The notes under the pieces: generated by a model
The model's input: only the letters and a program-made list of their open reading frames with translations
Databases searched by the model: none
What the model was told of the DNA's origin: nothing
In this document: in pieces, positions 23,562 through 39,574 of the stretch
Numbering within the stretch: the first letter of the stretch is position 1
How the letters are laid out: every line of letters starts with the position of its first letter
Position numbers and translations under genes: made by a program
Assembly: GCA_900298995.1 (NCBI GenBank)
Contig: OMIC01000037.1
Coordinates: 62,001 to 126,000, forward strand
Origin: Hyphomicrobiaceae bacterium
Lineage (GTDB): Bacteria > Pseudomonadota > Alphaproteobacteria > Rhizobiales > Aestuariivirgaceae
Reading direction: 5' to 3'
Length of the DNA: 64,000 nucleotides

Positions 23562-24425
23562 TCAGCCGCGCAGCCGGCGGCAGATGTCTTCCAGCTGGTC
23601 AAGCGACGCATAGGCGATGTCCAGGCTGCCGCTGCCATCCTTCCGGTGGGTGATCGCGACCTTGAGGCCAATCGCCTCCGAGATGGATTTTTCGAGTGCG
23701 CGCGTATCGGCATCCTTGTCCGGAACGGCCTTGGGCTGGCGCGGGGCGGCGGCGGCGCGGGCCAGGCCTTCTGCCTGGCGCACCGAGAGGCCGAGCTTGA
23801 TGATCTGCTCGGCGAGCTGTCCGGGCTGATCGGTGGCCACGAGGGCGCGCGCATGGCCGGCCGTGAGACGACCCAATTCAATCTGTGTACGGACGGATTC
23901 AGGCAGGTTCAGCAGACGCAACGTATTGGCGATGTGGCTGCGGCTCTTTCCGATCGCGTCGGCGAGCTGCTGCTGGGTATAGGTAAAGCGTTCGATCAGC
24001 TGGGTATAGGCGCGGGCTTCCTCGAGCGGATTGAGGTCCGAGCGTTGCACATTCTCGATCAGCGCAATCTCGAGCGCCTCGACGTCCGACAGCTCGCGGA
24101 TGATGACCGGCACGTCATGCACGCCGGCTTTCTGCGCCGCGCGCCAGCGCCGCTCGCCGGCCACGATCTCATAGGCGCCGTCGGATCGGGGCCGCACCAT
24201 GATGGGCTGCAGGAGTCCCTTCTCGCGAATGGAGGCGGCGAGGTCGTCGAGATCGGAATCGGCGAAATGCTTGCGCGGGTTGTTGGGGCTGGCCTTGAGA
24301 TACTCGATGGGCAACTGGCGCAGCGCGCGTGTGTCCTCGGCGGCGCCCTCCCCGGCGGATGCATCCCCGATCAGTGCCGCGAGTCCGCGGCCCAGCCTCT
24401 TCTTCGGTGCGCCTGCGCTGTCCAT
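23562..24425 (-). CDS. parB: Chromosome partitioning protein ParB
   Basis: A 287-residue CTP-dependent DNA clamp that loads at parS. The N-terminal KKRLGRGLAALIGD is the ParA-contacting segment, the CTP-binding motif GERRWRAA lies near residue 96, LIENVQRSDLNPLEEARAY follows, then a helix-turn-helix (TQQQLADAIGKSRSHIANTLRLL), and a C-terminal dimerisation domain. Its likely sites are the parS at 27835-27850 and perhaps the weak copy in rsmG. parA lies 50 bp upstream. Confidence 0.96.
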   Translation of the reverse strand: MDSAGAPKKRLGRGLAALIGDASAGEGAAEDTRALRQLPIEYLKASPNNPRKHFADSDLDDLAASIREKGLLQPIMVRPRSDGAYEIVAGERRWRAAQKAGVHDVPVIIRELSDVEALEIALIENVQRSDLNPLEEARAYTQLIERFTYTQQQLADAIGKSRSHIANTLRLLNLPESVRTQIELGRLTAGHARALVATDQPGQLAEQIIKLGLSVRQAEGLARAAAAPRQPKAVPDKDADTRALEKSISEAIGLKVAITHRKDGSGSLDIAYASLDQLEDICRRLRG

Positions 24426-24475
24426 TGATCCTGTCCCGTCCGTCCTGAAGCCTGATGATGACGCGTGGCGTGGGC

Positions 24476-25312
24476 CTAGGCCGCACGCAATTCGCGCTCG
24501 CGCCGGATGATCTCGGAGGCCAGCCGGATGTAGGCCTGCGAACCGACACAGCCATTGTCATACAGCAGAACCGGCTTGCCGTAGGACGGGGCTTCCGAGA
24601 TCCGGACATTGCGCGGGATCACCGTCTGATAGACCTTGTCCCCCAGCACACTGCGCACATCCTCGGCGACCTGTTCCGAAAGCTTGTTGCGGCGGTCAAA
24701 CATGGTGAGCACCACGCCCTGAATGGTGAGGCGCGGATTGAGGCTCGTCTTCACGCGCTCCACGGTCTTGATCAGCTGGCTCAGGCCCTCGAGTGCGAAG
24801 AATTCGCACTGCAACGGAACGAGGATGGCATCGGCAGCGGAGAGCGCATTGATGGTCAGCAGATTGAGCGAGGGCGGGCAGTCGACGAGAACATAGGTAT
24901 AGGCTGCCTCGGCCTGGGTTTCCCGGCAGAGGGCAGCGATGGCGTCGGCGAGCCTGTAGGTCTTGCGTTCGAAATCCGCGAGTTCGAGTTCGGCGCCGAG
25001 GAGATCCATGGTCGACGGGGCGCAATGCAGGCGCGGGATGCCGGAATCGACGATCACCTGGCGGAGCGTCGCCTCACCGATCAGCACATGATAGGAAGAT
25101 CTCTGCCCCGGCCGGCGCTGCACCCCGAGACCGGTGCTGGCATTGCCCTGCGGATCGAGATCGATGATCAGCACCCGCTCACCGACGGCCGCGAGCGCCG
25201 TGCCGAGATTGATGGCAGTCGTTGTCTTGCCAACTCCGCCCTTCTGATTGGCAACCGCCAGGATGCGGGGCGGCGCGGCAACGGAGGGAGTGCCGGAAAC
25301 AAGATCAGACAC
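24476..25312 (-). CDS. parA: Chromosome partitioning ATPase ParA
   Basis: A 278-residue deviant-Walker ATPase whose gradient drives ParB-parS movement. The Walker A KGGVGKTTT is at residues 24-32, followed by LIIDLDPQGNASTGLG, VDCPPSLNLLTINAL (Walker B) and the DNA-binding basic C-terminal region. The GTG at 25312 is chosen: a GAGG sits 6 nt upstream and the start overlaps the rsmG stop (GTGTCTGA). An ATG at 25339 is in frame but lies deeper inside rsmG. No helix-turn-helix precedes the ATPase, so this is a chromosomal-type (Soj) protein. Confidence 0.95.
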   Translation of the reverse strand: MSDLVSGTPSVAAPPRILAVANQKGGVGKTTTAINLGTALAAVGERVLIIDLDPQGNASTGLGVQRRPGQRSSYHVLIGEATLRQVIVDSGIPRLHCAPSTMDLLGAELELADFERKTYRLADAIAALCRETQAEAAYTYVLVDCPPSLNLLTINALSAADAILVPLQCEFFALEGLSQLIKTVERVKTSLNPRLTIQGVVLTMFDRRNKLSEQVAEDVRSVLGDKVYQTVIPRNVRISEAPSYGKPVLLYDNGCVGSQAYIRLASEIIRRERELRAA

Positions 25313-25928
25313 GGGAGACCTCACGAATCTCGAGAACAACGCCGCGCGGATCGCACTGGCTTGGATGTCTCACAAAATCAATTTTCCAACATTTAGTGGC
25401 CGCGGTCAATTCAATATCAACATCTTGCCCCTTGTGGAACAGGGCGACCGCTCCAGTCCGGAGAAAAGGTTCCGCATAATCAAGCAGTTGCGGCAAGGGG
25501 GCGAGCGCCCGGGCGAGCACGCACTGCACCCGCGGAACCTCCGTCATCCGGAGCGCCTCGAGCCTTGTGACATGAACATGGGCCCGGGTCGCCGTCTGAC
25601 GCGCCGCCTCGCGCAGAAATGCCGCTTTTTTCCCATTGCTTTCATAGAGATGCACCTCCAGATCGGCAGCCATGGCAACCACCAGACCTGGTATTCCGGC
25701 GCCCGAACCGAGATCCGCGATGGAAACCGTGCCTTGAGGAAGCAGCGGCAGAAGCTGGAGAGCATCGAGGATGTGACGTTCCCAGATCACGGGGACCGTC
25801 GCGGGTCCGATCAGGTTGATCCTGCGCTGCCAGGCGAGCAGCAGCTCCACATAGGCCTCGATCCGCTGGCGTGACACACGTGAAACATTGAAACGGTCCA
25901 GTATGGCCGCGGCGGCAGCATCGGTCAT
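25305..25928 (-). CDS. rsmG: 16S rRNA m7G527 methyltransferase
   Basis: A 207-residue GidB-type methyltransferase. The SAM-binding motif [15 protein letters not shown] lies near residue 68, with [12 protein letters not shown] and [20 protein letters not shown] later, typical of RsmG. ATG 25928 overlaps the mnmG stop by ATGA. The 5' end encodes [10 protein letters not shown], and the DNA there (25872-25887) is a 13/16 match to parS. Confidence 0.95.
25872..25887. promoter_or_regulatory. Degenerate parS-like site inside rsmG
   Basis: TGACACACGTGAAACA differs from the consensus TGTTTCACGTGAAACA at three consecutive positions (3-5). One half-site is intact. It lies in codons of the rsmG N-terminus. 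ParB binding is plausible but weaker than at 27835. Confidence 0.4.
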
Positions 25929-27790
25929 GCCGCGCTCTGGCGGCTGCGCCGTTTCACATGCCCCAGGATGATGGCAAGCGCGGCGGGCGTCATGCCGTCG
26001 ATCCGGGAGGCCTGCACCAGCGTCGCGGGCATCACCGCCTGCAGTTTTTGCCGGAGTTCGGCAGAGAGGCCCGGCATGGCCGCGTAATCCAGATCCTCGG
26101 GAAGTGCCAGCCGCTCCTCCCGTCGCAGTGCGGTGATATCGGCATCCTGGCGCGCGATGTAGCCCGCGTACAGCGCTTCGGCCTCCAGTGCTTCCACGAC
26201 GTCCGGCTTCAGCCCTGCCAGTTCCGGCCAGATGGCCGTGATCCCAGTCCAGCCCACATCCGGCATGGCGAGAAGATCAAGGGCGGTTCGGCGAAGCCCG
26301 TCCTGGTTCACTTTCAGGCCCTTGCGCGCAGCTTCCCCGGAGGTGAGCGACAGCTGCCTCGCCCGTGACAGGCCGTTCCGAATGGCCTGTTCCCGGGCCT
26401 CGAAGCGTCCGCGCCGTTCCGGACCGACAAGCCCGGCTTCCATGCCAAATGGCGTCAGCCTCAGGTCTGCATTGTCGGCCCTCAGGGTCAGACGATATTC
26501 CGCCCGCGAGGTGAACATCCGGTATGGCTCAGTCACGCCGCGGGTGACCAGATCATCGATCATCACACCCATATAGCCCTGCGTGCGATCAATCGTCAGC
26601 GGTGTCTGCCCTCCCGCCCTTCGGGCGGCATTGAGCCCCGCAACCAGCCCTTGCGCGGCTGCCTCCTCATAGCCGGTCGTGCCATTGATCTGCCCGGCGA
26701 GAAAGAGATTGGGCAGCCGCTTCACTTCCAGCGAAGCCGTCAGCTCGCGCGGGTCAACATAGTCATACTCGATCGCATAGCCCCAGCGCTTGACGACTAC
26801 CGCCTCAAGCCCCGGAATCGTCCGGATAAAGGCCTCCTGAACGTCCTCCGGCAGCGATGTCGAGATGCCATTGGGATAGACGGTGTCGTCATCCAGCCCT
26901 TCCGGCTCCAGAAAGACCTGATGGCTGTCCTTGTCGCGAAACCGGTGGATCTTGTCCTCGATCGACGGACAGTAGCGCGGACCGACACCTTCGATCTGGC
27001 CCGAAAACATCGGCGATCGGTGCAGATTGTCGCGGATCAGACGGTGGCCGGCCGCCGTGGTATAGGTCAGGAAGCACGATAACTGCGGGGTTTCGATGCG
27101 TTCCGTCAGAAAGGAGAAGGGCACGGGCTGGTCATCACCCTTCTGCTCCTCCAGCCGGTTCCAGGCGATGGTGCGGCCATCAAGCCGGGCCGGCGTGCCG
27201 GTCTTCAGGCGTCCAAGTGCCAGGCCGACCGCACGCAGCTGATCCGACAGGCCAAGTGCTGGCGCCTCACCATGCCGTCCTGCCGGGGTCTGGCGTTCTC
27301 CGACATGGATCAGCCCATTCAGGAAGGTTCCGGTGGTCAGAACCACCGACGCACTCCGGATGACCCGGCCATCCTCGCAGACAACACCGGTCGTCCTGCC
27401 CTGCTCCATTGCCAGTCCGCTGACCCGGCCGGGCACGACCGTCAGATTGAACTGCGCCGCGATCGCAGCCTGCATCGCCAGACGGTAGAGCTTGCGATCC
27501 GCCTGCGCCCGCGGTCCGCGCACCGCCGGTCCCCTGGACCGATTGAGAAGCCTGAATTGAATTCCAGCCTGATCAGCCACCCGGCCCATGAGCCCGTCCA
27601 GCGCGTCGATTTCCCGGACGAGATGTCCCTTGCCAAGCCCGCCAATTGCCGGGTTGCACGACATTTCACCAATTGTATCAGCACGATGGGTCACGAGCGC
27701 GGTCCGTGCACCGAGGCGCGCCGCTGCCGCGGCTGCTTCGGTGCCGGCATGGCCACCGCCAACGACTATCACATCGAAACTGCTGTCCAT
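25925..27790 (-). CDS. mnmG: tRNA uridine-5-carboxymethylaminomethyl modification enzyme MnmG (GidA)
   Basis: The FAD-binding partner of MnmE in making cmnm5U at wobble position 34 of tRNAs. The 621-residue protein has the dinucleotide motif [12 protein letters not shown] (9-20), [20 protein letters not shown] near 80-100, and [20 protein letters not shown], all GidA signatures, plus the C-terminal helical domain. Its start lies 45 bp from the parS site, in the 64-bp gap after mnmE. It begins the mnmG-rsmG-parA-parB coupled run. Confidence 0.96.
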
Positions 27791-27834
27791 GGATACTCTC
27801 TACGCATCCCCGGCACGGGAGTCAAAATGTCGGG

Positions 27835-27850
27835 CGTTTCACGTGAAACA
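27835..27850. promoter_or_regulatory. parS: parS centromere site
   Basis: CGTTTCACGTGAAACA matches the consensus TGTTTCACGTGAAACA at 15 of 16 positions; the inner palindrome GTTTCACGTGAAAC is perfect. It lies in the mnmE-mnmG gap, 2.5 kb upstream of parA and about 4.4 kb from the candidate oriC. It should load ParB, and it sits in the leader region of mnmG. Confidence 0.9.
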
Positions 27851-27854
27851 TGGC

Positions 27855-29195
27855 CTATTTCCCGATGCAGAAGCGGCTGAAGATCGCTCCAAGCCATTCC
27901 TCCACATCGACTCGACCCGTCAGGCGCCCGACCGACTCTGAAGCGAGCCGGATACACTCCGCCTTCACTTCCAGAGCCTCTGAGGCCGCCGAAAGTGAAT
28001 CGTTCAGGAAGCGAATCGATTCCTCGGCAATGCTCTTTTGTCGAACCGATACCAGAAGAGCAGAGTCCCCACCACCGAATCCACTCACCAAATTACTGAT
28101 TTGGTTTATCAAATCATCCATTCCGGCACCCGTCCTGGTCGAGACCGTTACATTCGGTTCCAGGATTTCATTTCGGAGGAGTCTCGATTCTCCGGCTGTG
28201 AGATCTGCCTTGTTTCTGATGTACAAAGCCGGCGTCAGGCCTGGCTCGGGCGTTTCACTACCGGCAACATCGGGAGACGAAACCCACAACACCATGTCCG
28301 CCGCCTCCATCTGGCAGCGTGATCGCCGCACACCTTCGGCTTCCACCTCATCATCCACGGCACCGCGAAGCCCGGCCGTGTCGGTCAGCATGACCGCAAC
28401 CCCCTTCAGGTCCAGCATCACCTCGATGACATCTCGCGTGGTCCCCGGGCGGTCCGACACAATGGCTGCGTCCCGTCCAGCCAAACTATTGAGAAGACTC
28501 GATTTTCCAGTATTTGGATAACCTGCCAGCACAAGCCGCACCCCATCGCGCACGACCTCCGAGGCGCCCGAGGCGGCCATGCAGTCGCGTATCTCCCCCA
28601 GAAGACGGCGAATATCCGCATCGATGGTTCTTCCGGCTTCCGCGGCAACGCCTGGCTCGTCGGCGAAATCGACCACGGCCTCAATTCCCGCCCGGATTTC
28701 CAGAAGCTGCCGCCGCCAGCCCTCGAACACCGAACTGGCCATACCGGACATCTGGCGGATGGCCTGCCGCCGCTGCGCTCCCGTTTGCGCGGTGAGCAGA
28801 TCCGAAAGCCCTTCGACCTCAACAAGATCCATCTTGCCATTGGCAAAGGCCCGCCGCGTGAATTCCCCCGCCTCCGCCGGCCGTATGCCCGTGTAGCGCC
28901 GAAGGACCGCCATGACTCCCCCGAACACGGCCGGACTGCCATGCAGGTGCAATTCGGCGACATCCTCGCCCGTGAACGATCTGGGACCGGGAAGCCAGAC
29001 GACAGCCGCCTTGTCGAGGATCTCCGACGTCTGCGGATCGCGAAGCACGCGCGGCACCAGATGCCGCGGCGCCGGCAATCCGCCCGCCAGTGCGGTGAGG
29101 ACCATGGAGGACCCCGGTCCCGACAGGCGCAGGACCGCGACGGCGGCGCGTCCCGCACCACTGGACAGCGCAAAGATCGTGTCGCTGCTCGTCAT
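27855..29195 (-). CDS. mnmE: tRNA modification GTPase MnmE
   Basis: A 446-residue GTPase that works with MnmG. It has an N-terminal formyl-THF-binding domain (FALSSGAGRAAVAVLRLSG), a long helical domain, an inserted G domain with P-loop GYPNTGKSS near residue 224 and the GTTRD switch, and ends in the catalytic C-terminal CIGK (C443). It is 43 bp downstream of rho. The C-terminus abuts the parS site. Confidence 0.96.
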   Translation of the reverse strand: MTSSDTIFALSSGAGRAAVAVLRLSGPGSSMVLTALAGGLPAPRHLVPRVLRDPQTSEILDKAAVVWLPGPRSFTGEDVAELHLHGSPAVFGGVMAVLRRYTGIRPAEAGEFTRRAFANGKMDLVEVEGLSDLLTAQTGAQRRQAIRQMSGMASSVFEGWRRQLLEIRAGIEAVVDFADEPGVAAEAGRTIDADIRRLLGEIRDCMAASGASEVVRDGVRLVLAGYPNTGKSSLLNSLAGRDAAIVSDRPGTTRDVIEVMLDLKGVAVMLTDTAGLRGAVDDEVEAEGVRRSRCQMEAADMVLWVSSPDVAGSETPEPGLTPALYIRNKADLTAGESRLLRNEILEPNVTVSTRTGAGMDDLINQISNLVSGFGGGDSALLVSVRQKSIAEESIRFLNDSLSAASEALEVKAECIRLASESVGRLTGRVDVEEWLGAIFSRFCIGK

Positions 29196-29238
29196 TACGC
29201 CCTCGAATCGGACCGCGAGGGATCAGGCGAGATCCTGA

Positions 29239-30522
29239 TCAGGCATTCATCGAGTCGAAAAAGTCGCTGTTCGTCTTCGTCTGCCGCAACTTGTCCAGCA
29301 AGAACTCGATTGCGTCAACCGTTCCCATGGGATTGAGAATGCGGCGCAGAACATATGTCTTCTTGAGCACGTCAGACTTCACCAGCAGCTCTTCCTTGCG
29401 GGTTCCCGACCGCAGAATGTCGATTGCCGGGAAGACGCGCTTGTCCGCAACCTTGCGGTCGAGGATGATTTCGGAGTTGCCGGTGCCCTTGAACTCTTCG
29501 AAGATCACCTCGTCCATGCGGCTTCCGGTGTCGATCAGCGCCGTTGCGATGATGGTCAGCGAGCCGCCTTCCTCGATGTTGCGGGCCGCGCCGAAGAAGC
29601 GCTTTGGCCGCTGCAGGGCATTCGCGTCGACGCCGCCGGTCAGGACCTTGCCGGAGGACGGCACGACCGTATTGTAGGCGCGCCCGAGGCGGGTGATGGA
29701 ATCCAGCAGGATCACCACATCACGGCCATGCTCCACGAGCCGCTTGGCCTTTTCGATCACCATTTCGGCAACCTGAACATGGCGCGAGGCAGGCTCGTCG
29801 AAGGTTGAGCTGATGACCTCACCCTTCACCGAACGTTGCATGTCGGTAACTTCCTCGGGCCGTTCATCGATCAGCAGCACGATGAGGTAGCACTCGGGGT
29901 GATTTGCGGTAATCGAATGCGCGATGTTCTGCAGCAGCACCGTCTTGCCGGTGCGCGGCGGCGCGACGATCAAGCCACGCTGGCCCTTGCCCAGCGGCGA
30001 CACGATGTCGATGACGCGCGAGGAATAGTCCTTCTTGGTCGGATCGCCCGTCTCCATCTCGAGGCGCTCGTCCGGATAGAGCGGCGTCAGATTGTCGAAG
30101 TGGACCTTGTGACGGGTCTTCTCCGGGTCCTCGAAATTGATGCGGTTGAGCTTCACCAGGGCGAAATAGCGTTCGCCATCCTTGGGGCTTCTGATCTGAC
30201 CTTCGACCGTGTCACCGGTCCGCAGCGTGAACTTCCGGATCTGGCTCGGACTGATGTAGATGTCATCCGGCCCCGCCAGATAGTTGGCGTCTGGCGAGCG
30301 GAGGAAGCCGAAGCCATCCTGCAGCACCTCGACCACGCCTTCGCCGATGATCTCGACGTCGCGGCCTGCGAGGTTCTTGAGGATCGCGAACAGCAACTCC
30401 TGCTTGCGGAGGGCGCTGGCGTTCTCGACTTCCAGTTCTTCTGCCAGCGAAACCAGTTCGGCCGGCGATTTCAATTTGAGGTCGTGGAGCTTGATTTCTT
30501 TCAGCTCGGCAATAGCGGTCAT
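29239..30522 (-). CDS. rho: Transcription termination factor Rho
   Basis: A 427-residue hexameric RNA helicase. It has the N-terminal Rho-N helical domain ([15 protein letters not shown]), an RNA-binding CSD ([19 protein letters not shown]), Walker [12 protein letters not shown] near residue 180, [14 protein letters not shown] (Walker B), and the Q/R-loop region [12 protein letters not shown]. Length and spacing are as in E. coli Rho. A short hairpin lies in its leader (30578-30594). Confidence 0.97.
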
Positions 30523-30577
30523 TTTCCAATCACATGAAATGTTTCCGGCCCTGTGGGCGGGAAAGGAGAGGCGGGAT

Positions 30578-30594
30578 CGCTCCCTACAGGAGCG
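30578..30594 (-). other. Short perfect hairpin in the rho leader
   Basis: CGCTCC-CTACA-GGAGCG, a 6-bp stem with a 5-nt loop, about 55 nt upstream of the rho start and 47 nt downstream of the hemJ stop. There is no U-run, so it is not a classical terminator. It might shape the rho leader, since rho is autoregulated in other bacteria; this is speculative. Confidence 0.25.
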
Positions 30595-30641
30595 CTGCGA
30601 CCCCCATATACTGCTTCACGCGACGGTCGCCAAGACCAAAG

Positions 30642-31082
30642 TCAGAAGGGCTTCAGGATCACCAGCACGACGATGGCGATCAGCAGCACGGTCGGCACCT
30701 CATTCACGATGCGGAAATAGCGGCCGGGTCGCGTCTCACGGCCGGTCCGAAAGCGTACCGCATGCATCTCCAGAACACCATGAAACACCAACATTCCGGC
30801 AACAAACAGCAACTTCAGCCACAACCACACGGGCATTGCCTGATCCCACCCGCCGAGGTGGATCAGCACCAATCCCGTGACGACCGTGACAAGCCCCGCC
30901 GGCCGCATGATTGCCTTCAGCAACCGCCGCTCCATCACCAGAAACACCGCGATCAGGCTGGAATTCGATTTGTTTTCAGAATGATAGACAAAAAGCCTGG
31001 GCAGGTAAAAGAGCCCCGCCATCCATGAGATCATGGCCAGGACATGCAGAACCTTCAGCCATCCGTAGCCGTCACCCATCAT
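30642..31082 (-). CDS. hemJ: Protoporphyrinogen oxidase HemJ
   Basis: A 146-residue membrane protein (UPF0093) that oxidises protoporphyrinogen IX. Four hydrophobic helices are seen, with the conserved histidine and fold signature KVLHVLAMISWMAGLFYLPR near the N-terminus, VMERRLLKAIMRPAG in the middle, and FRIVNEVPTVLLIAIVVL at the end. The gene starts with two adjacent ATGs (31082 and 31079) and overlaps the hemE stop by 11 bp, linking two heme steps. Confidence 0.92.
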   Translation of the reverse strand: MMGDGYGWLKVLHVLAMISWMAGLFYLPRLFVYHSENKSNSSLIAVFLVMERRLLKAIMRPAGLVTVVTGLVLIHLGGWDQAMPVWLWLKLLFVAGMLVFHGVLEMHAVRFRTGRETRPGRYFRIVNEVPTVLLIAIVVLVILKPF

Positions 31083-32118
31083 GCTGGCGCACCGCCTCGA
31101 CCACTGCCCCGACTACCGCCGGATCCGTACCCAGCCGGATTCCATGACCCAGATTGAAGATATGCCGCTGCCGGTCGATTGTGGAACAGATACGCCGAAC
31201 TTCCGAGCGGACAACGGCTTCGCCGGCAAGCAGGGCGACGGGGTCCAGATTCCCCTGAACCACCACATTCCCGGGAAGTTCGCCCAGATCACACTCTGTT
31301 TCCACGCCGATTGCGCTGGCGCCTGGCAGCGCCGCCGCTTTCCTCTGCTGAGATCCGATCCCGCGCGCAAAGACGATAATGGGAACAAGCGGATGGCGTG
31401 CCCGGACGCCTGCAATGATGGCGCCCATGGGCTTCAGCACAAATTCCTCAAGCTCCGATGCGACGAGATCACCGGCCCAGGAATCGAAGATCTGAAGGGC
31501 CTGAGCACCCGCATCTGCCTGTGCGCACAGATAGGCGACCGATTCCTCAACAAGCCGATCCATCAGTTTCACGAACCATGACTGACGCTGATAGGCTGCC
31601 ACCTTGGCCATCACCCGATCGGAACTGCCACCGCCGACCATGTAGCTCGCGACGGTCCAAGGCGCACCGCAAAAGCCAATCAGGGCCTGATGCGGCTGCA
31701 ACTGCCTGCGCGTGAGCGCAACCGTCCGGCACACCTGGGTGACCTCATGGGTCGAGGCGACAGGCTTCAATGCCGCCACATCCGCCATGCTTCGCACTGT
31801 CCCCAGCACCGGCCCCTCACCTTCCTCGAACTTCAGGGGAAGGCCCATCGCATGTGGAACGACGAGGATGTCCGCAAACAGAATGGCTGCATCGAGATCA
31901 TACCTCCGGAGAGGCTGGACCGTTACCTCGGCTGCCAGCTCAGGATTGTAGCAGAGATCCAGAAACGACCCTGCCTTTTCCCGAACAGCCCTGTATTCGG
32001 GCAGGTAGCGTCCTGCCTGACGCATGAACCACATGGGTCGGCGCACTGCCGGCCTGCGGTTGAGAACATCGAGCAATGCACTGGCTGATGCCGGGGCCTC
32101 TGACTTCCTATCAATCAT
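31072..32118 (-). CDS. hemE: Uroporphyrinogen decarboxylase
   Basis: Decarboxylates uroporphyrinogen III to coproporphyrinogen III. The 348-residue protein has the N-terminal signature PMWFMRQAGRYLPEY, then DLDAAILFADILVVPHAMG with the catalytic aspartate, and FCGAPWTVASYMV. ATG 32118 is preferred; the frame continues to 32166, but that region belongs to the origin gap. hemE borders oriC in Caulobacter, Rickettsia and Sinorhizobium, which supports the origin call. Confidence 0.96.
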   Translation of the reverse strand: MIDRKSEAPASASALLDVLNRRPAVRRPMWFMRQAGRYLPEYRAVREKAGSFLDLCYNPELAAEVTVQPLRRYDLDAAILFADILVVPHAMGLPLKFEEGEGPVLGTVRSMADVAALKPVASTHEVTQVCRTVALTRRQLQPHQALIGFCGAPWTVASYMVGGGSSDRVMAKVAAYQRQSWFVKLMDRLVEESVAYLCAQADAGAQALQIFDSWAGDLVASELEEFVLKPMGAIIAGVRARHPLVPIIVFARGIGSQQRKAAALPGASAIGVETECDLGELPGNVVVQGNLDPVALLAGEAVVRSEVRRICSTIDRQRHIFNLGHGIRLGTDPAVVGAVVEAVRQHDG

Positions 32119-32229
32119 TCTATTCTTCTTGAGTCTTTTGTTTGAGCCACGAAGAGCGGGATACAACCCAATCCAATGACAGTCGACAGGTCAAGCCCAA
32201 CCTTGCCACCAGAACGGGGAAATCTGCTG

Positions 32230-32244
32230 TTAACCGAAAATTAA
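32230..32244. promoter_or_regulatory. CtrA-binding motif 1
   Basis: TTAACCGAAAATTAA, an exact TTAA-N7-TTAA, the full recognition sequence of the cell-cycle regulator CtrA. In Caulobacter such sites repress initiation at the origin. Confidence 0.8.
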
Positions 32245-32250
32245 GGCGTG

Positions 32251-32265
32251 TTAACAGATCGTTAA
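32251..32265. promoter_or_regulatory. CtrA-binding motif 2
   Basis: TTAACAGATCGTTAA, a second exact TTAA-N7-TTAA, starting 21 bp after the first, so both would lie on the same helical face two turns apart. Confidence 0.8.
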
Positions 32266-32440
32266 TCAACTAGAACCGGTATGAAATCAGGTGCACAAGC
32301 TGTTCAAGACATCCAGATCTTCCACATCCCCCTGCAGGGTTTTCCCCGTGAAGGACTTTGTGGACTGATCCGGGATTGCGATCCGGCGGCACTGCAAGGA
32401 CCGTGCTGAAATCCAACTTACCCCCATTTCATCAACAGCC

Positions 32441-33283
32441 ATGCCCCAATCCGGTTCACAGCGATACTTCCATCTGCATCTGATCTCAGATGCCACAGGT
32501 GAGACGCTGTCAACGGTCGCCAAGGCGGCCGCTGCGCAATACGCTGACTTCCGGCCCATCGCACATATCTATGCTCTGGTCCGAACCCCTACGCAATTGA
32601 ACCGTGCCCTTCGCGAGATTGAGGAACAACCCGGCATCGTCCTGTTCACGCTCATCAATGATGACATGCGCAGGCAACTGGAGAAACAATGCGAGGCCAT
32701 CGGCATTCCTTGCCTGTCGATCCTCGATCCTGTGATCTCCATGCTCTCGCAATATCTGAACACTGCTTCGCGCCCGCAAGTTGCGGGTCAGCATGCCCTG
32801 AATTCCGACTATTTCCGCCGCATCGATGCATTGAACTTCACCATGGCGCATGACGATGGTCAGGACCTCGAGGACCTTGAAAAGTCTGACATCATTCTTG
32901 TGGGGGTGAGCCGGACCTCGAAGACGCCGACATCGATCTATCTTGCACAGCGCGGAATCAAGACGGCGAATATTCCGATTGTGCCCCGGATTCCCGTACC
33001 GCAGAAACTCTTCGATGTGAGGGGTCCACTGATCGTCGGGCTTATCGCCAGTGCCGAGCGCATCGCCCAAATTCGCCGGCATCGCCTGTTGTCTCTCAAG
33101 GAAAGCCGCTCCACGGACTATGCCGATCCCCGGCTCATAACTGATGAATTGATGTTCATGAAGACGATCTGTTCGGAGCATGACTGGCCAATGATCGATG
33201 TCACACGCCGCTCGGTAGAGGAAACAGCGGCCGCGATCCTCAACCTTCTTTCCGAAGCACGCCGCGTGGACGCCACCACATGA
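32441..33283 (+). CDS. ppsR: PEP synthase/PPDK regulatory kinase-pyrophosphorylase (DUF299)
   Basis: A 280-residue bifunctional ADP-dependent kinase / Pi-dependent pyrophosphorylase that controls pyruvate-phosphate dikinase or PEP synthase. It has FHLHLISDATGETL at the N-terminus and the P-loop GVSRTSKTPTS near residue 153, both DUF299 hallmarks, plus IVPRIPVPQKLF. It is the RP001-type gene that borders alphaproteobacterial origins. It starts the ppsR-maf-aroE-coaE-dnaQ set, joined by four-base overlaps. Confidence 0.92.
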   Translation: MPQSGSQRYFHLHLISDATGETLSTVAKAAAAQYADFRPIAHIYALVRTPTQLNRALREIEEQPGIVLFTLINDDMRRQLEKQCEAIGIPCLSILDPVISMLSQYLNTASRPQVAGQHALNSDYFRRIDALNFTMAHDDGQDLEDLEKSDIILVGVSRTSKTPTSIYLAQRGIKTANIPIVPRIPVPQKLFDVRGPLIVGLIASAERIAQIRRHRLLSLKESRSTDYADPRLITDELMFMKTICSEHDWPMIDVTRRSVEETAAAILNLLSEARRVDATT

Positions 33284-33864
33284 TCATCCTTGCCTCAACC
33301 AGTCCTGCACGTCAGTCCATGCTCCGGCAGGCGGGACTTGCGTTCTCGATTGATGCGCCACAGGTAAACGAGCGGCAGTTCGCATCGCTCCACCCCCACT
33401 GGTCTCCAAGCGACATGGCTGTCGAACTTGCAGCCGCGAAGGCACTCGATGTTGCGCAGCGCCATCACGACGCAACGGTCATCGGCGCCGATCAGGTTCT
33501 GGCACTGGCGGACCGGTCATTTTCAAAGCCGCGTGATCGTGCGGAGTGCCGTGAGCATCTCCGGGCCTTGCGCGGGACATCACACCTGCTGATTTCCGGT
33601 ATAGCCGTTGCCAAGGATGCCCAAGTGATCTGGCGTCATCATGAGGTCGCACGCCTCACCATGCGCAGCTTCAGCGATGCTTTTCTCGAGTCCTATCTCG
33701 ACCGGATCGGCGAGGATTGCTCGTCCTCGGTCGGCGGTTACAAGATCGAGGGCCCGGGCATTCAACTCTTCGAACGGGTCGAGGGCGATCACTTCACCAT
33801 CCTGGGCCTGCCGCTCCTCGCGCTTCTTGCAAGGCTAAGAGAGCTTGGGGAGATTGCAACATGA
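33280..33864 (+). CDS. Maf family nucleoside triphosphate pyrophosphatase
   Basis: A 194-residue house-cleaning enzyme that hydrolyses non-canonical or pyrimidine NTPs. It has LASTSPARQSMLRQAG at the N-terminus, the catalytic aspartate in VIGADQVLAL near residue 70, and SSVGGYKIEGPGIQLF near 155. It overlaps ppsR and aroE by ATGA on each side. Maf proteins have also been linked to septum inhibition, but substrate specificity cannot be read here. Confidence 0.93.
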   Translation: MIILASTSPARQSMLRQAGLAFSIDAPQVNERQFASLHPHWSPSDMAVELAAAKALDVAQRHHDATVIGADQVLALADRSFSKPRDRAECREHLRALRGTSHLLISGIAVAKDAQVIWRHHEVARLTMRSFSDAFLESYLDRIGEDCSSSVGGYKIEGPGIQLFERVEGDHFTILGLPLLALLARLRELGEIAT

Positions 33865-34700
33865 TCAAGGCCTGTGTGATCGGTTGGCCCATCAGCCACT
33901 CCCGCTCGCCGCTCATTCACGGCTACTGGCTCAGGCTGCATGGCATCGATGGCAGTTACACCCGCAAGCCTGTCGAGCCAGCACAGCTTCAAGACTTCAT
34001 CAGGAGCCTGCCCACACAAGGCCTGGCCGGCTGCAATGTAACAATTCCCCACAAGGAAGCCGTCCATGCACTGGTGAAACCGGCGGATGCGACGACCGAG
34101 CGGCTTGGTGCAGTGAATACTGTTTTCCTTCGCGATGCTGAAGTGATGGGGACAAATACTGATGGCGAGGGCTACATCAACAATCTGCGGCAGGCTGTTC
34201 CCGGTTTCACGATGAAAGACCGGCGCGCCATGGTGCTTGGGGCAGGTGGAGCCTCCCTGGCGGTCGTCAATGCCCTTCTCGAACAGGGCGCGGCTGAAGT
34301 GGTGGTGGCCAACCGTACTGTGGAGCGGGCAGACGATCTTAGGCGACGGTTCGGGACGCGGGTTGTTCCGCTGCCCTGGGAGCACATCGAGATCCATCTT
34401 CCCGAGACCGCGCTTCTGGTGAACACAACGTCGCTCGGCATGTCGGGCCAAGCGGATCTCGTTCTAGATCTTTCGCGGCTGTCCGTGGACGCAGTGGTGA
34501 GCGACATCGTGTACACACCCCTCCGGACCCATTTTCTCGAGACGGCTGCACGGCGTGGCAATCCGGTCGTTGAAGGTCTTGGCATGCTGCTTCATCAGGC
34601 CGTGCGTGGCTTCTCCTTGTGGTTTGGCGTTGTCCCGCAGGTGACACCTGAGCTTCATGATCTGGTCGCGCGCGACATCGATCCGGGTTATCAGCGATGA
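33861..34700 (+). CDS. aroE: Shikimate dehydrogenase
   Basis: NADPH-dependent reduction of 3-dehydroshikimate. The 279-residue protein has the substrate motif GWPISHSRSPLIHGYWL, the catalytic lysine in NVTIPHKEAV (about residue 65), NTDGEGYIN with the catalytic aspartate, the nucleotide loop VLGAGGASLAV, and the basic patch VANRTVERA for NADP. The upstream frame to 33717 overlaps maf and is discarded. Confidence 0.96.
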   Translation: MIKACVIGWPISHSRSPLIHGYWLRLHGIDGSYTRKPVEPAQLQDFIRSLPTQGLAGCNVTIPHKEAVHALVKPADATTERLGAVNTVFLRDAEVMGTNTDGEGYINNLRQAVPGFTMKDRRAMVLGAGGASLAVVNALLEQGAAEVVVANRTVERADDLRRRFGTRVVPLPWEHIEIHLPETALLVNTTSLGMSGQADLVLDLSRLSVDAVVSDIVYTPLRTHFLETAARRGNPVVEGLGMLLHQAVRGFSLWFGVVPQVTPELHDLVARDIDPGYQR

Positions 34701-35302
34701 TCATTGCCGCACTCACCGGATCCATTGCCATGGGAAAGAGCGAGACGGCGAAGATGTTCGCTGCCCGCGGCATCCCGGTCTTTGACAGTGATGCAGCGGT
34801 CCATGCCTTGTATTCGGAAGGTGGCGAAGCCGTGGAAGTGATACGCTCGATTGCGCCGTCAGCCGTGGAGAACGGCCGCGTAGACCGGCAGAAGCTCTCT
34901 GTGCTTGTGCAGCAGCGGCCATCGCTCCTGAAAGATATCGAGGCTGTGGTGCATCCACTGGTCAAGGCGCGGCAAAAGGAGTTTCTTTCGGATGCCCGCG
35001 CGGCAGGGGCTGGACTGGCAGTCCTCGATATTCCACTGCTCTTTGAAACCGGCCGCCAGGCGGACGTCGATGTCGTTCTCGTCGTGTCGGCCGGTCCGGA
35101 ACTGCAGCGTATGCGGGCGCTAGCACGCCCCGGCATGACACCGGAAAAACTCGAGCTGATCCTGTCCCGTCAAATTCCTGACGCCGACAAGCGGGCGCGT
35201 GCCGATTATGTGATCGACACATCCCGAAGCCTCGCCGACACAGCCCACGCGGTCGATCAGATCATTGCGGATTTGAAGGCCAGAGCGGAGACAGGTTCAT
35301 GA
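34697..35302 (+). CDS. coaE: Dephospho-CoA kinase
   Basis: The last step of coenzyme A synthesis. The 201-residue P-loop kinase has [15 protein letters not shown] near residues 8-22, [21 protein letters not shown] and [10 protein letters not shown], the CoaE lid and substrate signatures. Coupled to aroE and dnaQ by ATGA overlaps. coaA (45.5 kb) and coaBC (54.8 kb) also lie in this window, so three CoA genes flank the origin. Confidence 0.95.
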
Positions 35303-35988
35303 CTCGCGAGATCATCCTTGATACCGAAACGACCGGGCTGGATCCCGCTGCCGGACATCGTATCGTGGAGATCGGCGCGGTCGAACTTCTCAATCACGTG
35401 CCAACCGGGCGCACCTTCCATGTCTATCTCAATCCCGAGCGCGACATGCCGAGGGAGGCTGAAGCCGTGCATGGTCTCTCGTCGGCGTTCCTGAGCGACA
35501 AGCCGCTGTTCTCGGCGGTCGTTGACGAGTTCCTGGCGTTCATTGCCGATGCCAGTCTGATCATTCACAACGCAAGCTTCGACATGGCATTTCTCAATGC
35601 CGAACTGGGCTTTCTGCGCCTGCCATCCATTGCGCCCGAGCGTGTCATCGACACGCTGCACATCGCGCGCCAGAAACATCCGGGCTCGCCCAACAGCCTC
35701 GACGCGCTTTGCCGCCGATACGGGATCGACAACAGCAAGCGTTCGAAGCATGGTGCACTGCTCGACTCGGAACTTCTGGCCGAGGTCTATCTGGAGCTGA
35801 TCGGAGGTCGGCAGACGGCTCTCGTTCTCGAGGCCAGCATGGCCCGGCGGCCCTCTGCGGCGGCAACCGCGCAGGTGGGCCTGCAGCGTCCGCGTCCGCT
35901 CCCGCCAAGGCTGACGGCGGAGGAGCGCGCCGCCCATGATGCCTTTGTGGCAGGTCTGGGCGATCAGGCGCTGTGGAAACGGATCTGA
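35299..35988 (+). CDS. dnaQ: DNA polymerase III epsilon subunit
   Basis: The 3'-5' proofreading exonuclease. The 229-residue protein has Exo [10 protein letters not shown] (near residue 6-14), Exo [13 protein letters not shown], and Exo [17 protein letters not shown], so it is a DEDDh exonuclease. The C-terminal region carries the alpha-subunit-binding tail. It ends the rightward ppsR-dnaQ run, 18 bp from the convergent secB. Confidence 0.95.
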
Positions 35989-36006
35989 CGGATCGGCAGG
36001 GCGGCG

Positions 36007-36519
36007 CTAGGCCTGACCCATGGTCTGCTGCTGCATGCGGCGCTGATACATGGCGGCGAAGTCGATCGGGTCCAGCATCAGGGGTGGAAAGCCGCCGTTG
36101 CGGGTGGCTTCGGCCATGATTTGCCGGGCGAAGGGAAACAGCAGCCGCGGGCACTCGATGAGAACGGCCGGGTGAAGCATCTGTTGGGGAAAATTGTCGA
36201 GCCGGAAGGTTCCGGCATAGATGAGTTCCGCAGCGAACACGACCTTGTCCTGGGCCGTGGCCTTGGCTTCAAGCTGGAGTTCAACCTCGAAGTCGGTTCC
36301 GCCGACGTTACGGGCGTTGACATTGACGGCGATGTTGATGTCCGGTTGGGCCTGCTGCTGTCCGAGGGATTGGGGCGCGAGCGGGTTCTCGAAACTCAGG
36401 TCCTTGAGATACTGCCCCAGTATGCGGATCGCGGGCTGACCCTGAACGGCGGTCTCCGTCTTTCCGGAGCCATTGGGCTGGCTTTCCGAGGTGGCTTCGG
36501 GCTTGGGCGTGTTGGACAT
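36007..36519 (-). CDS. secB: Protein-export chaperone SecB
   Basis: A 170-residue tetrameric chaperone that keeps preproteins unfolded for SecA. It has ILGQYLKDLSFENPLAP and IAVNVNARNVGGTDFEVEL, LIYAGTFRLDNFPQQMLHP and LLFPFARQIMAEATRNGGFPP, all SecB core signatures. The N-terminal about 30 residues are a disordered serine/proline/glutamine extension common in alphaproteobacteria. Confidence 0.95.
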   Translation of the reverse strand: MSNTPKPEATSESQPNGSGKTETAVQGQPAIRILGQYLKDLSFENPLAPQSLGQQQAQPDINIAVNVNARNVGGTDFEVELQLEAKATAQDKVVFAAELIYAGTFRLDNFPQQMLHPAVLIECPRLLFPFARQIMAEATRNGGFPPLMLDPIDFAAMYQRRMQQQTMGQA

Positions 36520-36594
36520 TGTCGGCCTTTCTGGATTGACGGGTTCTCGGTAACACTCCCGCCGGATTGCCGCAAGACAGCCGGGTGAAGGGGA

Positions 36595-37068
36595 TCAGCC
36601 CGTTCGATCTGCAGGGGGTTGCAGTTGCTCGACTCGCGCGACGATTTCCACCGCCTCGGCGTCGATGATGGGGCCGAAGCCAGGGGCCTGAGAGGTCGGG
36701 GCCTGTACACGGCGGGCGAGGGCCGCCCACAGTCTCCGGCGAAGTGCTGGAACCACCAGAAGTGCTGCCAGCAGGTCGCTGAAGAAACCCGGAGCCAGCA
36801 GAAGAAGCCCCGATGTGAACCTCGCCAGGGTTTCCTCACCCAGTTTTCCAGGCAATGATGCCATCTGAGCGCGGTTGCTCAGCGCATCAACGAGACCGAG
36901 CCCAGCGGAGCGGAGCAGGGCGATGCCGGCAAGCCCGGCCGCAAGCAACAGCCCCAGTGTCGCAATGACGCCAAAAACCTGCCCGATCCAGATGATGGAG
37001 GCGATTTCAGCAGCCAGTCCGAGAAGCAGGAGCACGGGCAGAAAACGGAGCAGGAGGGATTTGCGCAT
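36595..37068 (-). CDS. FxsA family membrane protein
   Basis: A 157-residue protein with FxsA layout: LLLLGLAAEIASIIWIGQVFG, then LLLAAGLAGIALLRSAG, and GLLLLAPGFFSDLLAALLVVPALR, four hydrophobic segments in all. FxsA in E. coli suppresses F exclusion of phage T7, but the general role is unknown. It is divergent from the Tim44-like gene over a promoter region containing CTATATATAG. Confidence 0.88.
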   Translation of the reverse strand: MRKSLLLRFLPVLLLLGLAAEIASIIWIGQVFGVIATLGLLLAAGLAGIALLRSAGLGLVDALSNRAQMASLPGKLGEETLARFTSGLLLLAPGFFSDLLAALLVVPALRRRLWAALARRVQAPTSQAPGFGPIIDAEAVEIVARVEQLQPPADRTG

Positions 37069-37077
37069 GCTTGGGCC

Positions 37078-37106
37078 TTGGACCTCGATCTTGCGTTCTA
37101 TATATA
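37078..37106 (+). promoter_or_regulatory. Candidate promoter of the Tim44-like gene
   Basis: TTGGAC (37078-37083) and TATATA (37101-37106) with a 17-bp spacer, a good sigma-70-type match. The -10 lies in a palindrome CTATATATAG (37098-37107), so it could also serve the divergent fxsA gene. Confidence 0.6.
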
Positions 37107-37175
37107 GGCGTGCGGAAACGCTCCGTCACGCCGTGGTATCCCGTCAGCCGCCGTCTCTTGAAACTGGTCGATGAA

Positions 37176-37889
37176 ATGAGTTTTGATCCACTGAACATCC
37201 TTCTGCTTGCTGTTGCGCTGGTGGTCATCTGGCGGCTGCGGTCGGTGCTCGGTACGCGAACCGGCACTGAAAAGCCGCCATTCCAGCCCTATGATCGCCG
37301 TGACAGCAACAGTCCGAAAACTCAGGACACTGGTGCGACAGTCCTCGACTTTCCACAGACCGCCTCCGGTGACAGCCGCGGCGGGGAGCAGGAAGACCGG
37401 CCTGCCGTCTGGGCGGGCTATGCCGAGGCTGGCTCACCGCTCGCTGCGGTGCTCGAGGCAATTGCCGCGCGAGATGCCACTTTCACGCCCCGCAATTTTC
37501 TCGATGGCGCGAAGCTAGCCTATGAAATGACTCTCGAGGCCTTTGCCAAGGGTGACAAGCCAGGCCTCAAGAACCTTCTGTCCCGTGATGTCTTCGAGAG
37601 TTTCTCCCGCGTGATTGACCAGAGAGAGGCTGGGGGCCGCAGGGTGGAGCAGAATTTCGTCGGGATCGACAAGGCGCGCATCCAGTCGGCGCGGCTGGCG
37701 GACACCATGGCCTCGATCACCGTTGAATTCGTGAGTGAATTGATCACCGCGACCTATGACAGATCCGGGGAATTGGCAGATGGCGATCCCAAGCATATCA
37801 GCCGCGTGACGGATGTCTGGACCTTTGAACGTGATGTCTCCTCCCGCAATCCCAACTGGAAGCTGGTTGCGACCGAGGCGCCGGCCTGA
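37176..37889 (+). CDS. Tim44/TimA family inner-membrane adaptor protein
   Basis: A 237-residue protein with one N-terminal TM helix (LNILLLAVALVVIWRLRS), a proline-rich linker, and a C-terminal Tim44-like NTF2 fold (NFLDGAKLAYEMTLEAFAKGD, FVGIDKARIQSARL, VTDVWTFERDVSSRNPNWKLV). Bacterial TimA proteins are thought to be ancestral to mitochondrial Tim44; the exact job is unknown. It sits opposite fxsA/secB and upstream of mltA. Confidence 0.88.
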   Translation: MSFDPLNILLLAVALVVIWRLRSVLGTRTGTEKPPFQPYDRRDSNSPKTQDTGATVLDFPQTASGDSRGGEQEDRPAVWAGYAEAGSPLAAVLEAIAARDATFTPRNFLDGAKLAYEMTLEAFAKGDKPGLKNLLSRDVFESFSRVIDQREAGGRRVEQNFVGIDKARIQSARLADTMASITVEFVSELITATYDRSGELADGDPKHISRVTDVWTFERDVSSRNPNWKLVATEAPA

Positions 37890-37904
37890 GCTCCGGGTTG
37901 GTCC

Positions 37905-39002
37905 ATGGCTGGGGAGCTTGTGCCTTGTTCCGTTGCGGATCTTCCTGGCTGGGATGTGCATGACCATCTGGGGGCTTTCGACAGTTTCAAACGGTCCTGT
38001 CGCGAGATTCTTGACGCTGGCAGCGGTTTTGTGCGCCAGCCGCAGTTTGGTGGATGCCGCAGCGACTGGCAGGCCGTGTGCGAGGCAGGCCTCGGGGCAG
38101 ATGATGCGCGGAGGTTTTTTGAAAACTGGTTCGTGGCCTGCCGCGTGATGGATGCCGCGCGGCCAGAGGGAATGTTCACAGGTTATTTCGAACCTGAAGT
38201 CGAGGGCAGCCGGATGCCGTCTGCGGACTGTCAGGTTCCGATCTACGGACCACCCGCCGACCTGACCATTTTCACCGAGGATGAACGCGTCCGGAGCGGC
38301 TTTTCTGCAGGGCGTCGGCTCGGGGGTGAGCCCGTGGCCTATCTGACAAGGCGGCAGATCGAGGAAGGTGCTCTGGCCGGCCAGGGTCTCGAGATCGCCT
38401 GGGTGAGGGATTGGACTGATGCCTTCTTCATTCATGTCCAGGGGTCCGGCCGCATTCGTTTGCGCGAGGGCGGCAGCCTGCGGCTGACCTTTGCCGCGAA
38501 ATCCGGCCACGCCTACACATCGATCGGCAGTCGTCTTGTCGAACAAGGCGCGATGAGCCGGGACGAGATGTCCATGCAATCGATCCGGGCCTGGATGACG
38601 CAAAATCCCGGCAAGGCCCGTGCCCTGATGTGGGAGAACGACTCTTTCATCTTCTTCCGCGAAGCAGAACTCGACGATCCGTCGCTGGGTGCGCTGGGTG
38701 CGCAGCATGTGCAGCTCACGCCGCGCCGCAGCCTTGCCATTGACCATTCACACTGGATGTATGGAACGCCCATATGGCTGGATACAGAGGTCCCGGCGGG
38801 GGATGGCGGCGTCATGCGGCCCTTCCGACAGCTGCTGATCGCACAGGACACCGGCAGCGCAATCAGGGGCATGGCGCGCGGTGACGTCTATTGGGGATGT
38901 GGCGAGGCTGCGGGACTTGTTGCCGGACCGATGAAGAGCCCGGGCGTCATGACCGCGCTTCTGCCGCGCCTGGTGGCCCGGCGACTGGGCCTGGTTTCAT
39001 GA
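37905..39002 (+). CDS. mltA: Lytic murein transglycosylase A (MltA)
   Basis: A 365-residue enzyme that cleaves peptidoglycan glycan strands. It has GMFTGYFEPEVEGS, FFIHVQGSGRIRLREG, and RGDVYWGCGEAAG with the likely catalytic aspartate, plus the 3D domain. No signal peptide or lipobox is visible: the N-terminus MAGELVPCSVADLPGWD is polar, and an in-frame stop 18 nt upstream blocks extension. How it reaches the periplasm is unclear. It overlaps the smr gene by ATGA. Confidence 0.9.
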   Translation: MAGELVPCSVADLPGWDVHDHLGAFDSFKRSCREILDAGSGFVRQPQFGGCRSDWQAVCEAGLGADDARRFFENWFVACRVMDAARPEGMFTGYFEPEVEGSRMPSADCQVPIYGPPADLTIFTEDERVRSGFSAGRRLGGEPVAYLTRRQIEEGALAGQGLEIAWVRDWTDAFFIHVQGSGRIRLREGGSLRLTFAAKSGHAYTSIGSRLVEQGAMSRDEMSMQSIRAWMTQNPGKARALMWENDSFIFFREAELDDPSLGALGAQHVQLTPRRSLAIDHSHWMYGTPIWLDTEVPAGDGGVMRPFRQLLIAQDTGSAIRGMARGDVYWGCGEAAGLVAGPMKSPGVMTALLPRLVARRLGLVS

Positions 39003-39574
39003 CCCGCAAGCCCTCCGACTTCGATCTCTGGCTCGAAACAGCCAAGACGGTAAAGCCGCTCCGGCACGGTGCCACGCGCCAAACGCCGCAATCCGCATCG
39101 GCTGCGCTCTCGGCCGTGAAGAAGAAGCTCAAGACGCCCTCTGCACCGCATGTGCATGTACCCTCGCCGCAACAGAAGCCGCCGCCGCCCTCGACAGGTC
39201 TCGACCGGCGCACGACCCAGCGCCTCACCCGTGGCCAGGTAGAGATTGACGGTCGGCTCGATCTTCACGGCACGGGAATCGAGATGGCGCGGGTGATGCT
39301 GCTTCGCTTTCTCAGCGACGCGCAGGCGGCAGGGCTGCGCACGGTCCTGGTGATCACCGGCAAGGGAGAATCACCCTTTTCCCGGCATACGCTCCATGGG
39401 GCGGGGCATTTTCACGTACCTGAACGGGCAGGGCGGCTGCGCCGTCTTGCCACTGACTGGTTTCATGAGCCCGAGTTCCGTCGCCTGGTGGCCGGATTTC
39501 AGCCGGCCCACCCGAAACACGGTGGAGGCGGTGCCTATTATGTGCGCGTGCGGCGCATCAGGGAGGGACGGTGA
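38999..39574 (+). CDS. Smr domain protein
   Basis: A 191-residue protein with a charged, proline-rich N-terminal half and a C-terminal Smr domain: IDGRLDLHGTGIEMARVMLL, VLVITGKGESP, and a last segment HGGGGAYYVRVRR. Smr domains may have nicking or RNase activity; the DLHG and TGKG motifs are the conserved ones. It is not a MutS2 protein because no ATPase part is present. Its stop overlaps the XRE gene GTG. Confidence 0.88.
   Translation: MTRKPSDFDLWLETAKTVKPLRHGATRQTPQSASAALSAVKKKLKTPSAPHVHVPSPQQKPPPPSTGLDRRTTQRLTRGQVEIDGRLDLHGTGIEMARVMLLRFLSDAQAAGLRTVLVITGKGESPFSRHTLHGAGHFHVPERAGRLRRLATDWFHEPEFRRLVAGFQPAHPKHGGGGAYYVRVRRIREGR

Follow-up and report, generated by a model that had tools for sequence, protein, structure and literature searches.

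The hemE-ppsR gap as predicted Cori-type chromosomal replication origin of an Aestuariivirga-like member of the Hyphomicrobiales

The intergenic gap between hemE and ppsR was analysed in a stretch of 64,000 nucleotides (the window), which lies in contig C37 (166,689 bases) of a genome of 2.99 Mb in 58 contigs. By the PpsR protein, the closest named loci belong to Aestuariivirga, order Hyphomicrobiales. The gap is bounded on the left by the ATG of hemE on the minus strand (32116-32118) and on the right by the ATG of ppsR on the plus strand (32441). The genes to the left of hemE are UPF0093 (which we take to be hemJ), rho, mnmE, gidA, gidB, parA and parB. To the right of ppsR follow, in order, maf, aroE, coaE and an RNase_T exonuclease, presumably dnaQ. 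The features of the locus are as follows.

23562-24425, minus strand: parB; parAB lies about 7-9 kb from the gap
24476-25339, minus strand: parA, of the same parAB pair
25872-25887, no strand: weak parS-like site with 2 mismatches, which may be due to chance
27835-27850, no strand: parS, the best match in the genome (1 mismatch), 4.3 kb left of the gap and near parAB
31072-32118, minus strand: hemE, uroporphyrinogen decarboxylase (Pfam URO-D, PF01208)
32111-32197, no strand: conserved hemE-proximal block, from the alignment of relatives; probably the hemE leader or putative promoter plus the first DnaA-like box
32119-32440, no strand: predicted oriC, the hemE-ppsR gap of 322 bp (contig coordinates 94,119-94,440)
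32180-32188, plus strand: position of a DnaA-like box, aligned with TCGTCCACA of most close relatives and degenerate here
32230-32244, plus strand: perfect CtrA-type box TTAA-N7-TTAA, first of a pair; exact match, kept in relatives
32230-32276, no strand: AT-richest 40-mers of the gap (67.5% AT), overlapping the CtrA boxes; likely unwinding region, a putative role
32251-32265, plus strand: second perfect TTAA-N7-TTAA box of the CtrA type, 21 bp after the first; exact match, kept in relatives
32318-32326, plus strand: DnaA-like box TCTTCCACA; TTnTCCACA in 7 of the 10 closest gaps
32359-32367, minus strand: DnaA-like box (plus-strand letters TGTGGACTG); TGTGGA present in all 10 of the closest gaps, own included
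32418-32437, plus strand: two degenerate DnaA-like sites, of the TCCACA..TCATCCACA type in close relatives
32441-33283, plus strand: ppsR, kinase/pyrophosphorylase of the COG1806/DUF299 type (Pfam Kinase-PPPase, PF03618)

The AT fraction of the gap (0.506) lies above that of its surroundings (0.377 for the window). Only 0.08% of the 322-bp windows in the 64 kb match this value, and the richest of them starts at 32099 and overlaps the gap. The 67.5% AT of its richest 40-mers is reached by 44 of the 63,961 40-mers of the window, at several places. The first-pass annotation had proposed an oriC candidate between hemE and ppsR, with flanks like those of Caulobacter Cori, an AT-richer core and transcription diverging on both sides. 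The gap coordinates and the Pfam names of the flanking genes bear out the position, hemE and a COG1806 gene on the two sides agree with the Cori-like flanks, and the composition and the minus and plus orientations of the two genes confirm the remaining points. The annotation had also called the gap the sole gene-free stretch above 300 bp, which is consistent with our own gene call and is not proved by it. Five longer gaps (433-873 bp) came out of that call, all of them spanned by long open reading frames which its overlap rule had dropped; in one of them the dropped gene is maf (33280-33864), confirmed by Pfam, and in the other four these are open reading frames alone. By the gene call, the hemE gap is the only stretch of the window above 300 bp that no open reading frame crosses. 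The scan for sigma-70 promoters and terminators gave no match; the missing sigma-70 match says little because promoters of this group may differ.

The occurrence of the CtrA sites was analysed in the window, in the whole genome and in relatives. The two boxes listed above are the only exact TTAA-N7-TTAA matches in the 64 kb, as against 0.03 expected. With up to 2 mismatches, the paired arrangement was found at one place in the whole genome, and the reversed-pattern control at none. The CtrA protein of the genome itself scores over the family cut-off. For the comparison with relatives, 112 non-identical gaps were obtained from 146 loci, identical ones being merged and loci without hemE plus ppsR or maf being dropped. 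At least one exact CtrA site is present in 31 of the 112 gaps and at least two in 13 (own included), and the total of 44 sites compares with a mean of 1.4 in shuffled sequences. Of the 10 gaps closest to the window, its own among them, all carry at least one exact site and 7 carry the 21-bp tandem pair, which occurs in 9 of the 112 gaps overall. No exact site was found in the 10 gaps from records named Hyphomicrobium. The same 21-bp pair was seen at gap positions 154 and 175 in a distant uncultured member of the Rhizobiales (L025), whose hemE is 43% identical.

The alignment of 13 gaps revealed conserved islands, namely the hemE-side block with its TCGTCCACA-like box, the CtrA pair, TTnTCCACA, TGTGGA and the double TCCACA beside ppsR. 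The sequence between the islands varies, and a DNA-level match of the gap itself was found in only 4 of 40 relatives, over the hemE half. The AT content of the gap exceeds that of its flanks in 112 of 112 cases. Several of the DnaA-like boxes are degenerate in the genome studied here, a point that the first-pass annotation does not mention; the gap reaches a DnaA-box score of 1, which is equalled by 11% of windows of the sampled DNA, as against a score of 4 reached elsewhere on the same contig and near dnaA. The DnaA recognition motif of this genome, GRDHSTVLHAV, looks canonical despite the degenerate boxes at 32180-32437 (the protein comparison was made without the row of genome G018, where the open reading frame picked is not DnaA). 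Caulobacter relies on weak DnaA sites, and the degenerate boxes suggest either such a reliance or drift.

The DnaA boxes are clear in most of the relatives, and the score summed over the 112 gaps is 553 as against 38 +/- 9 for 20 shuffles and 26 for the reversed motif; these gaps are not independent because some come from close relatives. The gap is the top DnaA-box stretch of all the sampled DNA in G018 (300 kb) and G027 (790 kb). In G055 it is not the top stretch, its score of 1 being matched by 6% of windows. Ranking within the locus was carried out for 67 of the 112 gaps, those in loci of at least 9 kb; in 46 of them no other window of the locus (mostly up to 20 kb) equalled or exceeded the DnaA-box score of the gap, and in the other 21 at least one did. 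The gap of this genome showed no match to the IHF consensus forms WATCAN5WTR or WATCAANNNNTTR. Over the 112 gaps the looser form was counted 28 times against 12.7 +/- 3.8 and the stricter form 6 times against 1.9 +/- 1.5. According to the published criteria for origins of the Cori type, not every element need be present (PMC1914354).

The distribution of parS was surveyed in 12 genomes picked by hand from 60 relatives. The core TTTCACGTGAAA is present in 1-2 copies per genome in all 12, and every copy lies 4-9 kb from the hemE gap. The terminus was sought in 10 genomes, that of the window (G000) included. A dif pattern closely resembling that of E. coli found a match in just one of them and was dropped. 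A shorter pattern, for which up to 3 mismatches were allowed, gave matches in 8 of the 10: at one place each in G000, G001, G018, G048 and G055, and with a second place (3 mismatches) in G004, G027 and G040, while G046 and G053 gave no match to it. The reversed control matched once each in G027 and G048. The palindromic dif-like GCATAATATATATTATGGAAT is identical in all five same-genus genomes searched, namely G000 (contig C43, 13227-13250), G001, G004, G018 and G027; in G000 it lies on another contig than the gap. G055 consists of one contig (4,494,445 bases), treated here as a circle, and has a weak 3-mismatch dif-like site at 1,553,354, which is 29 kb from the point opposite the gap (1,524,178). 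G027 consists mainly of a 1.0-Mb and a 2.3-Mb contig, whose order and sense the assembly does not give, and two small contigs were left out. The two arms from gap to dif measure about 1,647 and 1,642 kb with the larger contig reversed, and about 1,037 and 2,252 kb with it forward.

An unsupervised scan for words that flip strand on a two-arm axis was also performed. The strongest octamer for an axis at the gap was CCCTGCCC in both G055 and G027; its complementary strand reads GGGCAGGG, a variant of the KOPS motif GGGNAGGG used for alphaproteobacteria in PMC2443382. The gap axis ranked 1 of 40 in G055, and in G027 2 of 40 with the contig reversed and 34 of 40 with it forward; for words of 6 and 7 letters its ranks were 6 and 2 in G055 and 3 and 2 in reversed G027. 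Words which keep one strand all round scored even higher than those that flip, which agrees with the constant strand offset described below. The KOPS pointing away from and toward the gap number 175 and 68 in G055 (175 of 243 away; control motif p=0.38), 78 and 14 in G027 with the contig reversed (78 of 92 away; control p=0.13) and 25 and 7 in G048 (p=0.013; control p=0.14). The values for G018 are 32 and 20 (p=0.14), no better than the same-composition control (p=0.064), and G018 therefore says nothing on polarity. When the larger G027 contig is taken by itself, 65 of its 75 KOPS point towards dif, a count that does not depend on the order of the contigs (control 20 of 32, p=0.05).

The contig of the window gave small counts, 14 away and 4 toward over 144,000 of its 166,689 bases (p=0.054; control p=1). 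Its nearest KOPS flanking the gap lie on the minus strand at 86,346 and on the plus strand at 101,426, with 4 of 18 sites out of pattern around this strand switch. Elsewhere in the genome GGGCAGGG is nearly one-stranded per contig: among the 100 of 276 places listed (contigs C1-C12), the 8 contigs with at least 4 listed sites hold 96 sites, of which 87 are on the majority strand (random mean 59). The 74 pooled loci of +/-10 kb showed no KOPS polarity (92 away, 88 toward). Judged by KOPS only, the best origin of G055 lies at 4.2-4.3 Mb, and placing it at the gap costs 3 to 6 log units and at dnaA 5 to 10. In G027 the gap is inside the best interval, and dnaA is about 5 log units down with the contig reversed and more if it is forward. 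KOPS do not place the origin finely.

These data support the oriC candidate of the first-pass annotation through the uniqueness and proximity of parS, the nearby parAB, the DnaA-box clusters of the relatives, the dif-like site of G055, the KOPS polarity and the persistence of the gap where ppsR is absent, which is given below. The sequence anatomy, the conservation and the geometry of parS, KOPS and dif were observed directly, that of KOPS and dif mainly in relatives. It is highly probable that the gap at 32119-32440 is the chromosomal oriC of this Aestuariivirga-like bacterium, with initiation modelled on Caulobacter, and very probably it belongs to the hemE-type (Cori-type) origins of alphaproteobacteria, a kind already known. 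The origin might instead be at dnaA or upstream of it, an arrangement found in many bacteria, the hemE gap being just a divergent promoter controlled by CtrA. Two one-mismatch DnaA boxes about 0.7-0.8 kb upstream of dnaA, on another contig, speak for this with their score of 4 against 1 for the gap. Such boxes are also explained by autoregulation of dnaA, and the parS core is confined to the neighbourhood of hemE in all 12 relatives surveyed. In G055 and G027, moreover, the fit of dnaA to the KOPS polarity is about 2 to 5 log units worse than that of the gap, and the dif-like site of G055 is about 0.76 Mb from the point opposite dnaA as against 29 kb for the gap. An origin at dnaA is considered very unlikely.

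A similarly low probability is given to an origin at another point of the surrounding 15-kb interval, such as between mnmE and gidA next to parS, with the hemE gap as its neighbour. The parS and the KOPS switch of the window's contig limit the origin only to about 24,346-39,426 of the window and so leave room for this; the rank of the gap as best DnaA-box window in 46 of 67 relatives' loci, and its position as the sole uncrossed stretch above 300 bp in the gene call, argue against it. That the gap is merely the divergent hemE/ppsR promoter region under CtrA control has almost no probability, even though the conserved block lies beside hemE and CtrA also regulates promoters. The parS, KOPS and dif geometry stands against it, and so does the fate of the gap where ppsR is missing. 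Among the same-genus hemE loci there are 17 with hemE beside maf and no ppsR between them (L123-L125, L127-L134 and L136-L141). A gap of 261-384 bp stays in all of these. It exceeds its flanks in AT content in all 17 and contains an exact CtrA site in 10 of them; such persistence would not be expected of a plain ppsR promoter. Across the 61 genomes searched (own included, some incomplete), PF03618 was found in 36 and hemE in 59. A PF03618 match was absent in 25 of these 61, some of them incomplete.

The GC skew of the whole chromosome had been proposed at first pass as a check on the origin in the hemE gap, and the outcome is mixed. The raw skew rises from left to right over up to 8 kb in 42 of 47 loci, a count confounded because genes diverge at the gap, and no clean minimum appears at the gap over the stretches sampled in five genomes. 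The window has a local minimum at 34,071; over the sampled stretches of G000, G018, G027 and G055 the raw skew has no clean minimum at the gap. The right-minus-left difference in skew at fourfold sites, corrected for gene strand, came to 0.084 for G048, 0.043 for the G027 contig, 0.022 for G055, 0.021 for G018 and -0.016 for G000. A joint model combining a constant with terms for gene strand and replichore was then fitted at fourfold sites (standard errors 0.006 to 0.019). As a check of the method, E. coli stretches gave the expected constant of 0.000 +/- 0.012, gene-strand term of 0.098 and replichore term of 0.068 +/- 0.012, and 16 of 17 KOPS pointed away from oriC. The constant, gene-strand and replichore terms were -0.074, -0.244 and 0.010 +/- 0.006 for G055; -0.116, -0.099 and 0.008 +/- 0.009 for G027; -0.113, -0.143 and 0.044 +/- 0.010 for G048; -0.013, -0.131 and 0.011 +/- 0.009 for G018; and -0.005, -0.119 and -0.010 +/- 0.019, with no step, for the own contig in G000. 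The replichore term is clearly above zero in G048 alone, and the skew minimum inside the window is therefore weak evidence. In G048 the best single split fell about 19 kb (one sample) from the gap, and a split at the gap came second; the best split fell within about 15 kb of the gap on the G027 contig and about 93 kb away in G055; in G018 and G000 it fell elsewhere and in the opposite sense.

The constant strand offset was the one unexpected observation. It lies more than 10 standard errors from zero in three relatives (G055, G027 and G048) and does not reverse at the gap or at dif. Its sign is the same in these three, which belong to three families, once hemE is turned to the minus strand; the sign in G027 rests on the large contig being reversed, each contig alone being one-signed, and that in G048 on one sampled contig of 1.5 Mb. 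In G055 the offset is negative in all eight octants (-0.047 to -0.090), and it is about zero in the G018 contig and, within error, in the window's own contig, which it leaves unaffected. The forks in these relatives might leave the hemE gap unequally, one direction doing most, or some strand-specific process might act; such an explanation is held to be unlikely, and KOPS and dif are still two-armed. A Methylocystis chromosome without a clear skew inversion (PMC3794950), unidirectional chromids in Pseudoalteromonas together with 77 unidirectional replicons of 16,103 predicted from skew (PMC7858055), and about 250 chromosomes with very unequal skews in SkewDB (PMC8941118) have been described. 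Among the few papers surveyed, a thin basis, none dealt with such a constant offset in Hyphomicrobiales. The offset is a curiosity rather than a refutation of the origin.

The proposed working of the hemE gap as an origin follows Caulobacter by analogy in every binding and firing step. DnaA would bind the array of weak boxes on both sides of the central AT-rich segment, open this segment and load helicase for two outgoing forks. Phosphorylated CtrA would bind the two tandem sites, whose spacing of 21 bp is two helical turns, inside the AT-rich segment and hold the origin shut outside S phase until CtrA is removed; it may also adjust the activity of the hemE promoter. Bound to parS 4.3 kb to the left, ParB would pull the copied origin away, and FtsK would track KOPS from the origin to the opposite dif site.

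The gap was compared with known and predicted origins, as far as the available parts of the papers describe them. Cori of Caulobacter crescentus (PMC1914354) shares the hemE and COG1806 flanks, the AT-rich core and the TTAA-N7-TTAA sites; it has five CtrA boxes, whereas the gap has two in tandem, with weaker DnaA boxes and no IHF consensus seen. The predicted origin of Azorhizobium caulinodans (PMC2443382) likewise has the conserved alphaproteobacterial origin gene cluster and a polarity of GGGNAGGG towards dif, but a GC-skew shift agreed there, unlike the raw skew of the genomes sampled here. In Hyphomonas neptunium (PMC6650430) a replication peak lies close to hemE, and parAB with parS lies about 7 kb away, which is comparable to the parAB at about 7-9 kb and parS at 4.3 kb observed here; the origin was measured there by marker frequency and is inferred here. 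The predicted oriC of Methylocystis sp. SC2 (PMC3794950) also lacks a clear GC-skew inversion and has dif almost halfway round; the region predicted there spans 1,063 bp, longer than the gap, and the available text mentions no CtrA sites for it. Of the few Aestuariivirga genome papers found, none concerns an origin by its title or the opening of its abstract.

The result locates the origin in a lineage for which most of the available genomes are drafts or assemblies from metagenomes. This lineage is a natural experiment, in which ppsR has been lost in many congeners and the gap stays, and in which the DnaA boxes have decayed in one species and the CtrA pair has not. The result also indicates that GC skew, the usual test for an origin, can fail in this lineage, where parS, KOPS and dif still point to the origin.
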